In this document: positions 6,462 to 10,828 of the stretch, piece by piece | Layout of the letters: each line of letters starts with the position of its first letter | How positions within the stretch are numbered: position 1 is the stretch's first letter | Source: a virus | Strand: one strand, 5' to 3' | DNA: 44,043 nt | IMG/VR virus record: IMGVR_UViG_3300020334_000004 | Span: 1 to 44,043 of that record | Made by a program: the position numbers and the translations under genes | The notes under the pieces: generated by a model | Database searches by the model: none | Seen by the model: the letters and a program-made list of their open reading frames with translations, nothing else | Told to the model about the DNA's origin: nothing

Positions 6462-6684
6462 CTCGACGAGACTCATATCTCGACTAGACACACCATCTAG
6501 ACTAGATTGACATCTCGACGAGTTATCTGTATAATACACAAAGATCTCGACGAGGATTATGTACGACGACTACGATCTCGACTATACATATGCACCCGAA
6601 TACACATACGATCTCGACGAGACATATGACATGTGGGTGCAATCGTTCGCGAATGCATCACATCTAGATGAGGATCTAGACGAG
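6462..6684 (+). repeat. Interspersed palindromic repeats CTCGACGAG
   Basis: Copies of the 9-bp palindrome CTCGACGAG or close variants (CTCGACTAG, CTAGACTAG, CTAGACGAG, CTAGATGAG, CTCGACTAT), usually preceded by AT, start at 6462, 6479, 6497, 6514, 6546, 6577, 6613, 6664 and 6676. Further half-matches occur at 6765 and 6810. The first four are spaced 17-18 bp apart, and one lies between the -35 and -10 of a perfect promoter. Copies inside genes are all in the frame encoding LDE or LDY, but at least four copies are outside any gene. Confidence 0.75.
6507..6535 (+). promoter_or_regulatory. Perfect sigma70-type promoter
   Basis: TTGACA (6507-6512), a 17-bp spacer and TATAAT (6530-6535) match the bacterial housekeeping consensus exactly. 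The palindrome CTCGACGAG (6514-6522) occupies the spacer, and another copy (6546-6554) covers the expected start of the transcript, as operators often do. It would drive the gene at 6559. Confidence 0.85.
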
Positions 6685-6741
6685 GAATATGCACGTGACG
6701 CGCAAGATTATAATGCGCTTGCGTATAAACATTACGCATGA
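6559..6741 (+). CDS. Acidic Tyr-rich protein with LDE repeats, 60 aa
   Basis: A 60-aa highly acidic protein with about eleven Tyr. It contains repeated DLDY/DLDE/HLDE units that correspond to in-frame copies of the CTCGACGAG repeat, and ends with ARDAQDYNALAYKHYA, a tail I associate with other cyanophage small proteins. It is preceded by an exact consensus sigma70 promoter (6507-6535) and should be strongly expressed immediately after infection. Its charge suggests a DNA mimic or an inhibitor of a host nucleic-acid-binding protein, but this is inference. Its last codons overlap the promoter of the next gene. Confidence 0.75.
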   Translation: MYDDYDLDYTYAPEYTYDLDETYDMWVQSFANASHLDEDLDEEYARDAQDYNALAYKHYA

Positions 6742-6747
6742 TATAAT
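6719..6747 (+). promoter_or_regulatory. Early promoter
   Basis: TTGCGT (6719-6724), a 17-bp spacer and TATAAT (6742-6747). The -35 lies in the last codons of the preceding gene, and transcription would start near 6754, 20 nt before ATG 6774. The -35 form TTGCG is shared with the promoter at 7636-7664. Confidence 0.7.
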
Positions 6748-6773
6748 AACGTACACATACACATCTCGACGCC

Positions 6774-6929
6774 ATGTATACACCTACAAAGCGCACAGTT
6801 CGGGTTACTCTCGACATTGAGTGTTATGATGATTTAGATTTAGAATCATTCGATTGGAATGATATTCTAAGTCTAGAAGGTGATGAGAATGTGTATGTTA
6901 CCACAGAAGAAAAATATATCGACTGGTAA
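6774..6929 (+). CDS. Conserved cyanophage-type acidic protein, 51 aa
   Basis: A 51-aa acidic protein (MYTPTKRTVR...): a basic N-terminus and strand VRVTLDIE are followed by an acidic stretch DDLDLESFDWNDILSLEGDENV and end KYIDW. The type is recognised from memory in other marine T4-like cyanophages, with unknown function. It has its own promoter (6719-6747) and is followed by a clear intrinsic terminator (6953-6977), so it appears to be a stand-alone transcription unit. Confidence 0.78.
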   Translation: MYTPTKRTVRVTLDIECYDDLDLESFDWNDILSLEGDENVYVTTEEKYIDW

Positions 6930-6952
6930 TGTGCCAGTTCTTGGATTGGCAC

Positions 6953-6977
6953 ACCGCTCCGATGGGGCGGTTTTTTT
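6953..6977 (+). terminator. Intrinsic terminator
   Basis: An 8-bp stem ACCGCTCC (6953-6960) and GGGGCGGT (6964-6971), with a 3-nt loop GAT and one T-G pair, is followed by a run of seven T (6971-6977). It lies 23 bases after the stop of the 51-aa gene and is the clearest rho-independent terminator in the window. Just upstream, TGCCAGTT...TGGCACA matches the core of the early hairpin cassettes. Confidence 0.88.
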
Positions 6978-7169
6978 ATGTTTACCGGAAGGCAGGAGCG
7001 GTGACGATGTATTTTCGTCTACAGCGGTACCCCCCGCCTCGTCTGATTTCTTATAAGATACCACGGCAGGGATCCACCGCAACCGATCGTGTGCCAGTTC
7101 GTGAGGTGTCCACTACTGCCACACAGGGAGCGGGTTTGGTGTATTGTTATCTCAGTTCAAACAAATCCA
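6978..7169 (+). other. Intergenic stretch without a supported gene
   Basis: This 192-base stretch between the terminator and the next gene contains another copy of the cassette core (TGCCAGTT near 7092, and GTGTG at 7089 that can pair with CACAC near 7120) and a weak -10-like TATTGT (7142-7147). An open frame running through it into the next gene has an unlikely composition and overlaps a better gene. Confidence 0.5.
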
Positions 7170-7433
7170 ATGCCTGGCGTTACCACCCGCATCAAATCCA
7201 TCACCGCCTGCATCATCGAAGGCGTGAACCGTGGGCATAAGTTTACCGCTGATGAATTGGGTGCCATTGTTGAGAATCTGGTGGAAACTTATGATCTCCA
7301 GTATTTCTCCGAGCGTTATGCTTCCCGCCCAACTTACACCAAAGGTGTTACGCAAGTTGAATACCAGATGAAAGATCTGGAGTTGAAAGGTATTGTTCAA
7401 CGCTGCGGAGTTCGTGAGTGGGTTAAACTCTGA
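7170..7433 (+). CDS. Putative winged-helix DNA-binding protein, 87 aa
   Basis: Starts MPGVTTRIKSITACIIEGVNRG. The segment KFTADELGAIVENLV is followed by a loop with RYASRPTYTKGVTQVEYQMKDLELKGIVQRCGVREWVKL, which fits helix, recognition helix, then a two-strand wing ending in W. Winged-helix proteins bind DNA and often regulate transcription, so this is a candidate phage regulator. ATG 7170 is chosen because homologous-looking cyanophage proteins begin here; an upstream GTG (7089) would add 27 residues of unlike composition. The fold assignment is inferred from the pattern only. Confidence 0.68.
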   Translation: MPGVTTRIKSITACIIEGVNRGHKFTADELGAIVENLVETYDLQYFSERYASRPTYTKGVTQVEYQMKDLELKGIVQRCGVREWVKL

Positions 7434-8573: not shown

Positions 8574-8765
8574 ATGAACAAAACCAAATTCGATTCCAAC
8601 GGCATCTACGCCAGCACCCCTGAACTCTCCGCCATTGCCCTGCAGGTGATGGAGCAGGAGAAGCGTGAGCGGGAACTGCGCCGCGAGTGGTTCAGCAAGT
8701 GGAATGAGTCCAGCAACCACGATGGTGGACAGTTCGGGATCTGGAACATCAGCGACCGCGACTGA
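8574..8765 (+). CDS. Hypothetical protein, 63 aa
   Basis: Starts MNKTKFDSNGIYASTPELSA, followed by a charged helix VMEQEKRERELRREWFSKWNESS and a polar tail with QFGIWNISDRD. The C-terminal codons (8727-8765) coincide with a copy of the hairpin/promoter cassette, so the tail may be a read-through extension into what is elsewhere intergenic DNA. The predicted transcript begins at or next to the ATG, suggesting leaderless translation. Function unknown. Confidence 0.68.
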   Translation: MNKTKFDSNGIYASTPELSAIALQVMEQEKRERELRREWFSKWNESSNHDGGQFGIWNISDRD

Positions 8766-8784
8766 CCCGCTGACCCCTTATAAT
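8727..8784 (+). promoter_or_regulatory. Early promoter cassette captured inside a gene end
   Basis: The sequence GGACAGTTCGGGATCTGGAACATC, split here by description: GACAGTT at 8728-8734 and TGGAACA at 8742-8748, aligns with the cassette core, followed by TGACCCGCTGACCCC and TATAAT (8779-8784). TGACCCGCT also occurs at 278-286. The -35 region is weak. It precedes ATG 8815 by about 24 bases of leader. Confidence 0.5.
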
Positions 8785-8814
8785 TTTCACATACCAAACA
8801 AACCAATCAACATC

Positions 8815-9285
8815 ATGCTCAAAGGAACCGAACTGCTCAACGCCATCGCCGCCATGCCCGAAGGCAGCACCCGTACCGAACAGTGCCGCGCCTGTGGTTA
8901 TGAGATCGACGGTCGCCTTCATTTCACTGATTTCTTCACTGCTATTCTTGAGGCAAAAGGTGAACTGAAAACTGAGGATCAGCGCAATGAAGAACTGATC
9001 CAACAATATCCTGAGCAAAGTGATATCCTCACTGAACTGCTTGAGGATTATGATTCTGAAGCGATTGAGGAGTTCATTGAGTACTTCGGAGAAGAGAATC
9101 TGGAGTCCTTCACTGATGCTTACCAAGGCGAAATGTCTGGCGCTGAGTTTGCTGAGCAACTGGTCACTGATTGCTATTGCCTGGATATTCCTTCCTTCGT
9201 TTGCATCTCCTGGGAGGATACTTGGGAAGAATTGCGTTATGATTTCACCGAACTGTCCGGTCACATTTTCTCCACCCAGTTCTGA
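8815..9285 (+). CDS. ArdA-like antirestriction protein with a cyAbrB-like N-terminus
   Basis: A 156-aa acidic protein. Residues 1-45 (MLKGTELLNAIAAM, then EQCRACGYEIDGRLHFTDFFTAILEAKG) resemble the N-terminal segment of cyanobacterial AbrB-like regulators (cyAbrB: GKxLL...KxCGY....RV....F..AL..A.G). Residues 100-156 (FTDAYQGEMSGAEFAEQL, then WEDTWEELRYDFTELSGHIFSTQF) resemble ArdA proteins, DNA mimics that block type I restriction enzymes. The acidic middle (about residues 46-99) fits a DNA-mimic surface. ArdA is usually about 165 aa, so the second domain is only partial in length. It has its own -10 box at 8779-8784. The assignment is from pattern memory; a plain acidic cyanophage protein is the alternative. 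Confidence 0.62.
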   Translation: MLKGTELLNAIAAMPEGSTRTEQCRACGYEIDGRLHFTDFFTAILEAKGELKTEDQRNEELIQQYPEQSDILTELLEDYDSEAIEEFIEYFGEENLESFTDAYQGEMSGAEFAEQLVTDCYCLDIPSFVCISWEDTWEELRYDFTELSGHIFSTQF

Positions 9286-9750: not shown

Positions 9751-9939
9751 ATGGAAATAGGTATAACTTCTATGCAAAAAAATCCCGGAGAAAATTTTTC
9801 GACCGTAGGGGTCGATCCTGTAACTGGTGAGTATGTCATTAAAGTACCTGAATGGATCATCAGTGAATTCGGGTGGTATGAGGGTACTGAGATCAACTTA
9901 GAGGTTGATGGAGATTGTATAGTAGTCACGGAACAGTGA
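9751..9939 (+). CDS. AbrB/MazE-like small protein, 62 aa
   Basis: Residues 21-62 (VDPVTGEYVIKVPEWIISEFGWYEGTEI, then LEVDGDCIVVTEQ) match the pattern of swapped-hairpin AbrB domains: G.Y.I.IP.......GW..G..I......G...I. Such domains dimerise and bind DNA as transition-state regulators or antitoxins. The first 20 residues are polar. No toxin partner is adjacent, so a regulator is more likely. The start at ATG 9751 follows an A-rich leader after TATATAAAA. Confidence 0.68.
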   Translation: MEIGITSMQKNPGENFSTVGVDPVTGEYVIKVPEWIISEFGWYEGTEINLEVDGDCIVVTEQ

Positions 9940-10063: not shown

Positions 10064-10828
10064 ATGGCAAAAGGATTTACAGTAAAAGCGAAAACGCCCG
10101 TAGCGAGTTCTACACCGAAAGCAGTAGAGTGGGACTATGCAAAGGCAAGAGAAATGATCAAAGGGAAGACAGTAGTATTCTGTCTACCTGGACGAGGAGT
10201 ATCATATACGTATTTGAAGAATTTTGTTCAACTTTGTTTTGACTTAGTACAAAACGGAGCAAGTATTCAGATCTCACAGGACTATAGTTCCATGGTGAAC
10301 TTTGCCCGTTGTAAGTGTTTGGGTGCTAACGTACTTCGTGGACCTGATCAGAAACCATGGGATGGTAAACTTCCTTATGACTATCAGTTGTGGATTGATA
10401 GTGATATTGTATTCAATGTAGAGAAGTTCTATCAGTTGGTATTGATGGATAAGGACATTGCTTCTGGTTGGTATTGTACTGAAGATGGACAGACCACTAG
10501 TGTTGCTCATTGGATGGAAGAAGATGACTTCCGTAATAATGGTGGTGTCATGAATCATGAGACACTGGAAACAATTCAGAAGCGTAAGAAACCCTTTACA
10601 GTTGACTATGCTGGTTTTGGATGGTTACTGATCAAGAATGGTGTCTTTGAGCATCAGGAGATCAAGTATCCATGGTTTGCTCCTAAGATGCAGGTCTTTG
10701 AATCTGGTGAAGTACAAGACATGTGTGGAGAGGATGTATCATTCTGTCTGGATGCTATCGCAGCAGGTTTTGAGATTTGGTGTGATCCACGTATCAGAGT
10801 TGGTCACGAGAAGACAAGAGTTATCTGA
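10064..10828 (+). CDS. Putative glycosyltransferase, 254 aa
   Basis: The sequence begins with an unstructured 20 residues, then KGKTVVFCLPGRGVSYTYLKNF (strand and helix of an alpha/beta fold), QISQDYSSMVNFARCKCLGANVL, and WIDSDIVF with a DxD motif at D112 and D114. DxD binds the metal and nucleotide-sugar in GT-A glycosyltransferases. The C-terminal half has GFGWLLIKNGVFE and GEDVSFC..A...GFEIWCDPRIRVGHEK, typical of GT2-like enzymes (acidic general base, then a His). It could modify phage DNA, capsid or host surface sugars. ATG 10064 is preferred; TTG 10031 in frame is close to the predicted transcript start. Confidence 0.8.
   Translation: MAKGFTVKAKTPVASSTPKAVEWDYAKAREMIKGKTVVFCLPGRGVSYTYLKNFVQLCFDLVQNGASIQISQDYSSMVNFARCKCLGANVLRGPDQKPWDGKLPYDYQLWIDSDIVFNVEKFYQLVLMDKDIASGWYCTEDGQTTSVAHWMEEDDFRNNGGVMNHETLETIQKRKKPFTVDYAGFGWLLIKNGVFEHQEIKYPWFAPKMQVFESGEVQDMCGEDVSFCLDAIAAGFEIWCDPRIRVGHEKTRVI

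Follow-up and report, generated by a model that had tools for sequence, protein, structure and literature searches.

Clustered near-palindromic sites around an early promoter of T4-like cyanophages as a probable multi-site operator

Why should a phage crowd short near-palindromic sites around one promoter and into the small gene behind it, and place almost none elsewhere? The locus that raises this question lies at 6462–6684 of a 44-kb window (IMG/VR virus record IMGVR_UViG_3300020334_000004, all 44,043 nucleotides), a fragment of a T4-like cyanophage whose blastn matches are Synechococcus and Prochlorococcus phages. We find that this array is common to many viruses of marine and freshwater cyanobacteria and not peculiar to one contig. 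It is probably a multi-site operator around a strong host-type (sigma-70) early promoter, and we expect a dimeric, phage-encoded regulator to read it as double-stranded DNA.

Results

A compact array surrounds a consensus promoter

The motif consensus, ATCTCGACGAGAT with A/T flanks, was aligned from clustered copies in viral contigs. It matched seven times within 6462–6684 and not once in the rest of the 44 kb, and a symmetric weight matrix built from related sites also returned seven window sites, all within 6466–6680. Allowing at most one mismatch gave 12 strand-hits against 3.2 expected, a count reached by 0 of 100 shuffles; outside the array, such matches were confined to two single sites, at 10188 and 11060. 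The cluster lies where a sequence-only reading of this DNA had placed it, well above shuffles. That reading had described a 9-bp palindrome, which fits the near-symmetric copies but is not exact, as the core has odd length and its centre base is not self-complementary.

The first four sites, on the + strand like every other window feature mapped here up to 6978, are an exact CTCGACGAG at 6462–6470 (centre about −64 from the −10 box), CTCGACTAG with one mismatch at 6479–6487, the weaker CTAGACTAG at 6497–6505 and a second exact CTCGACGAG at 6514–6522; they follow one another at 17, 18 and 17 bp, as had been noticed from the letters. The fourth lies in the spacer of a TTGACA-17-TATAAT promoter (6507–6535; 12 of 12 consensus positions) that is kept in relatives, with its centre at −12, a position maintained in either orientation; the earlier claim of a copy between the −35 and −10 boxes of a perfect promoter is thereby borne out. 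A further copy had been said to cover the predicted start. This exact CTCGACGAG at 6546–6554 falls just beyond the expected transcription start, not exactly on it, and occupies the 5′ untranslated and ribosome-binding region of open reading frame (ORF) A, whose ATG is at 6559.

ORF A (6559–6741) encodes a 60-amino-acid (aa), acidic, Tyr/Asp-rich protein with a conserved C-terminus, LAY[KR]HYA, and its coding sequence holds further sites: a degenerate CTCGACTAT at 6577–6585, an exact CTCGACGAG at 6613–6621, a degenerate CTAGATGAG at 6663–6671 and CTAGACGAG, with one mismatch, at 6676–6684. Partial CTCGAC copies follow at 6765 and 6811. Around half of the sites are outside genes. Individual sites measure 9–13 nt and are spaced irregularly, 17–70 bp apart; a CRISPR, which has repeats of at least 20 nt and regular unique spacers, was rejected on both counts, in agreement with the sequence-only reading.

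Sites are conserved at fixed promoter positions

Scanning viral contigs for two ATCTCGACGAG copies 10–40 bp apart gave at least 120 matches, and the loci among the matches listed hold clusters of several copies. Because this set was selected by the motif itself, a second set of loci was picked through the protein of ORF B only (6774–6929; 51 aa; phrog_12516, unknown function), which provides an anchor independent of the motif. Exact cores were present in the 550 bp upstream of ORF B in 30 of 31 non-redundant loci. This region held 114 exact sites (6.3 per kb), compared with 14 in the remaining 241 kb of the same loci (0.058 per kb). A reversed control motif had no match.

Measured from the −10 box, sites recur at about −12/−13, immediately ahead of the ORF A start codon (about +20 to +31) and within ORF A (about +87 to +105), with more upstream. 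Of 23 non-redundant promoters, 15 have a spacer site (at most one mismatch) whose centre falls exactly on −12 or −13, where chance would give about 0.001 per promoter; the centre base is A in 7 of them and T in 8. A site before the ATG was found in 18 of the 23, always with centre A. Occurrence of the spacer site in either orientation implies that the element is read as DNA. Before the ATG, the one orientation used brings GAG close to the start codon, as would be expected if the site doubled as a ribosome-binding site. The count in the genome and in relatives proposed from the sequence alone therefore comes out far denser at the array than elsewhere, with noncoding copies conserved at fixed promoter positions.

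In whole genomes of relatives the sites form one to three clusters inside a stretch of about 6 kb, with almost none elsewhere, and large metagenomic phage contigs likewise have one to three. In S-SRM01 the sites are restricted to 85571–85730, 88143–88252 and 90908–91005, plus two isolated matches; an HNH endonuclease gene directly adjoins the third cluster (locus L239, 13022–13459). S-T4 has one array, present twice with identical spacing in record MH412654, at 2.7 and 174 kb (2748–2933 and 174317–174502), which is probably terminal redundancy of the record. Where a second cluster exists it precedes the small conserved ORF C and flanks a terminator-like hairpin; other extra clusters sit after gene 3′ ends.

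Codon choice in ORF A follows the motif

The in-gene copies could be a coding repeat or the codon bias of an acidic, LDE-rich protein, and they are indeed in frame: those in ORF A read LDE (6613, 6663 and 6676) or LDY (6577). The sequence-only reading had extended this to both genes, but the ORF B copy reads LDI. Of the 98 LDE triplets in 61 distinct ORF A sequences, 67 are encoded by CTCGACGAG; in S-SRM01 ORFs of 250 aa or longer, 0 of 21 are. The codon CTC specifies leucine in 99 of 128 LDE/LDY contexts but for only 3 of the 111 other leucines of ORF A, and its share among leucines of the S-SRM01 ORFs is about 6%. Since LDE codon choice departs so sharply from that elsewhere, the sites are not a by-product of the protein sequence; judged by their codons, the ORF A copies are held by selection at the DNA level. 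This comparison refutes codon bias or a protein repeat as sole cause, the objection that the sequence-only reading had raised against itself, and with about half of the sites outside genes we give a coding explanation hardly any credence.

The motif changes between lineages

CTCGACTAG is the site version of P-SSM2 and of the single-cell virus AG-345-F15, where one copy again lies in a TTGACA-17-TATAAT spacer and another precedes the start codon of an ORF A relative. S-SKS1 uses mainly the half-site ACGAGAT; its 208 kb contain five copies of TACGAGATA, all inside 174 bp at the array locus. In S-CAM7 an unrelated motif, ATACTGCG/CGCAGTAT, forms one cluster upstream of ORF B and another 2.3 kb further on (locus L248, 11588–11788 and 13918–14031). 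No such array was found near ORF B in Bellamy, S-SM2, SynMITS9220M01, S-B05, DSL-LC03 or Sf-CH8, and nothing was found beside ORF B in S-SCSM1.

Three side observations concern these genomes. Upstream of its array, S-SKS1 has 22-bp tandem repeats of the CTTATAAACCTTCTCTAATACT type (locus L240, 13313–13411). DSL-LC03 has annotated Mom-like DNA modification and type II restriction endonuclease genes near ORF B (locus L228, 342–1512). Arrays found de novo in S-CAM9, S-8S55 and S-PRM1 have gaps in multiples of 9, look like coding repeats and were set aside.

The surrounding genes

Two strong hairpins followed by a T-run lie 3′ of ORF B (6931–6978; fold z −4.2) and are likely the terminator of an ORF A–ORF B unit. 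Hairpins of the form GTGCCAGTT...GGCAC occur after ORF B, at 6931–6978 and from 7089 onward, and recur in relatives, often beside sites, for example at the second cluster upstream of ORF C and in P-SSM2. None of ORF A, ORF B, the AbrB-like ORF considered below and the ORF at 7089–7433 was assigned to an accepted Pfam family. An ORF at 8665–9285 has matches among PHROG anti-restriction families (phrog_36653, E = 1.4e-11), which raises the possibility that a host-takeover or anti-defence region follows the array.

Discussion

How might the array work? The copies cluster beyond chance and the sites hold fixed promoter positions that are kept in relatives, both of which are expected of an operator array. 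The DNA-level operator role first suggested from the sequence survives the tests that could be computed against it: codon bias is excluded, noncoding copies are conserved, and sites occur only in compact clusters of relatives' genomes. A regulator on the spacer site would exclude RNA polymerase, and the flanking and in-gene sites would add cooperativity or a roadblock, so that the array would most likely shut off an ORF A–ORF B early promoter that is fully active on phage entry. We infer repression as the mode of action, and favour it over activation because the promoter, with consensus boxes 17 bp apart, is near-optimal unaided. Several findings weigh on the other side. In eight of the 23 promoters the spacer contains no good full palindrome, and in some of these a half-site version takes its place; inter-site spacings prefer about 24, 32 and 41 bp but show no 10.5-bp helical phase; the extra clusters, upstream of ORF C or past gene ends, have no clear promoter and are not accounted for by a plain promoter operator; and there is no obvious DNA-binding protein in the array neighbourhood.

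The clusters without a promoter would better suit the main rival explanation, in which the sites are replication-origin iterons: an initiator protein would bind the array and start replication, and the early promoter would supply the primer, as proposed for T4 oriE. The location, a few kilobases upstream of gp25–gp6–gp7, is also in keeping with this, although T4 oriE itself sits within gene 5. We nevertheless regard an origin as unlikely. The sites are unevenly spaced, near-palindromic and orientation-neutral, whereas even spacing is the defining feature of oriE; cumulative GC skew has no consistent extreme at the arrays; and exact placement in a promoter spacer is a feature of promoter control. 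An element acting in the transcript, where the repeated AUCUCGACGAG would bind a regulator or structure the leader, could explain why all well-matching copies before the ATG share one orientation and overlap the ribosome-binding region. That orientation is, however, explained by Shine–Dalgarno use; conserved copies also precede the transcription start and occur in both orientations, which makes an RNA element very unlikely. A structured RNA in particular was rejected, the 5′ region having no unusual or stable fold and no Rfam family scoring above the gathering threshold.

Which protein would read the operator? A host transcription factor would be in keeping with a host-type promoter and with phages that infect one host group only. 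We think it quite improbable. S-SKS1, S-T4 and one S-CAM7 record are all listed with host strain WH 7803, yet their motifs differ; a Prochlorococcus phage shares the motif family of Synechococcus phages; and no cyanobacterium was listed when 84,980 bacterial and archaeal genomes were scanned for the paired motif. The different motifs under one host strain and the result of the scan together make a phage protein the more likely reader. The 99 loci that the scan did return, many from GC-rich genomes, look like background and were discarded as host arrays.

Among phage genes, the sequence-only reading had suggested an AbrB-like protein and a winged-helix protein. The winged-helix ORF, near 7170, is rare, occurring in five related loci. 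The AbrB/MazE-like ORF (9751–9939, + strand; 62 aa; phrog_661) is a candidate partner by gene content only, and this association is a lead. It was the sole family present in all ten array-bearing genomes or fragments compared; it is also in S-CAM7 and was in none of five array-free ones (Fisher p about 0.002, from a hand-made isolate table and with no correction for relatedness or number of families). It is found too in 43 of 47 full-palindrome-array loci that reach the neighbouring conserved gene, but also in ACG-2014f and Sf-CH8, where no array was found. Swapped-hairpin proteins of the AbrB/MazE kind often bind palindromes, and matches of the phrog_661 structure model include MazE, VapB and AbrB, though the model is moderately confident (pLDDT 74.5), the Foldseek E-values are above 1 and the ORF has no Pfam match. 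Simple DNA binding is argued against by the net charge of the phrog_661 proteins, −3 to −13 and mostly about −10. In an alignment by eye, the basic DNA-contact positions of AbrB are replaced by acidic or neutral residues. That this protein binds the array directly and represses its promoter is therefore possible but doubtful, and it may instead be an inhibitor or co-factor.

Known systems resemble the array in part. Stoperators of mycobacteriophage L5 are multi-site phage repressor operators scattered over the genome in one orientation. Like them, the cyanophage sites are many short copies of lineage-specific sequence, one overlapping an early promoter; unlike them, they are confined to one to three clusters in about 6 kb and mixed in orientation, and their carriers are, as far as known, obligately lytic phages with no repressor gene identified. 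Ribbon-helix-helix operators (MetJ, omega, Arc) are tiled short palindromes bound cooperatively by small dimers. They share the multiple short palindromic sites, but the cyanophage array is not contiguous and no such protein was found. The AbrB/MazE family is approached in fold, at weak scores, by the phrog_661 ORF, which tracks the array but lacks the basic contact residues and a Pfam hit. T4 oriE also combines repeats near baseplate genes with an early promoter, and the role of the T4 repeats is unresolved (PMC3016281); the cyanophage sites differ in being irregular, near-palindromic, of mixed orientation, and both intergenic and within ORF A.

A literature search with the exact sequence returned unrelated papers, the top ones of 144 mostly primer matches, and the passages found on S-SRM01 and T4-like cyanophages contain no mention of such repeats, which in itself does not prove their absence from the literature. 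The array looks like an undescribed multi-site control switch. More speculatively, and with little likelihood in our view, lytic cyanophages might use a rapidly diversifying operator code, specific to each lineage and placed at this single syntenic early locus. The phage repressor reading it would also silence related phages that enter the same cell, much as in superinfection immunity, and S-CAM7-type motifs would then be separate specificities.

Apart from sigma-70-like early and T4-like late promoters, little is known of how cyanophages of the P-SSM2/S-SKS1 type control their genes. Here a shared array fixes exact promoter positions, invades coding sequence through codon choice and changes its motif between lineages. 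It offers a concrete entry point to an early regulator of viruses that are abundant in oceans and lakes, with P-SSM2, S-SKS1 and S-SRM01 as culturable carriers.
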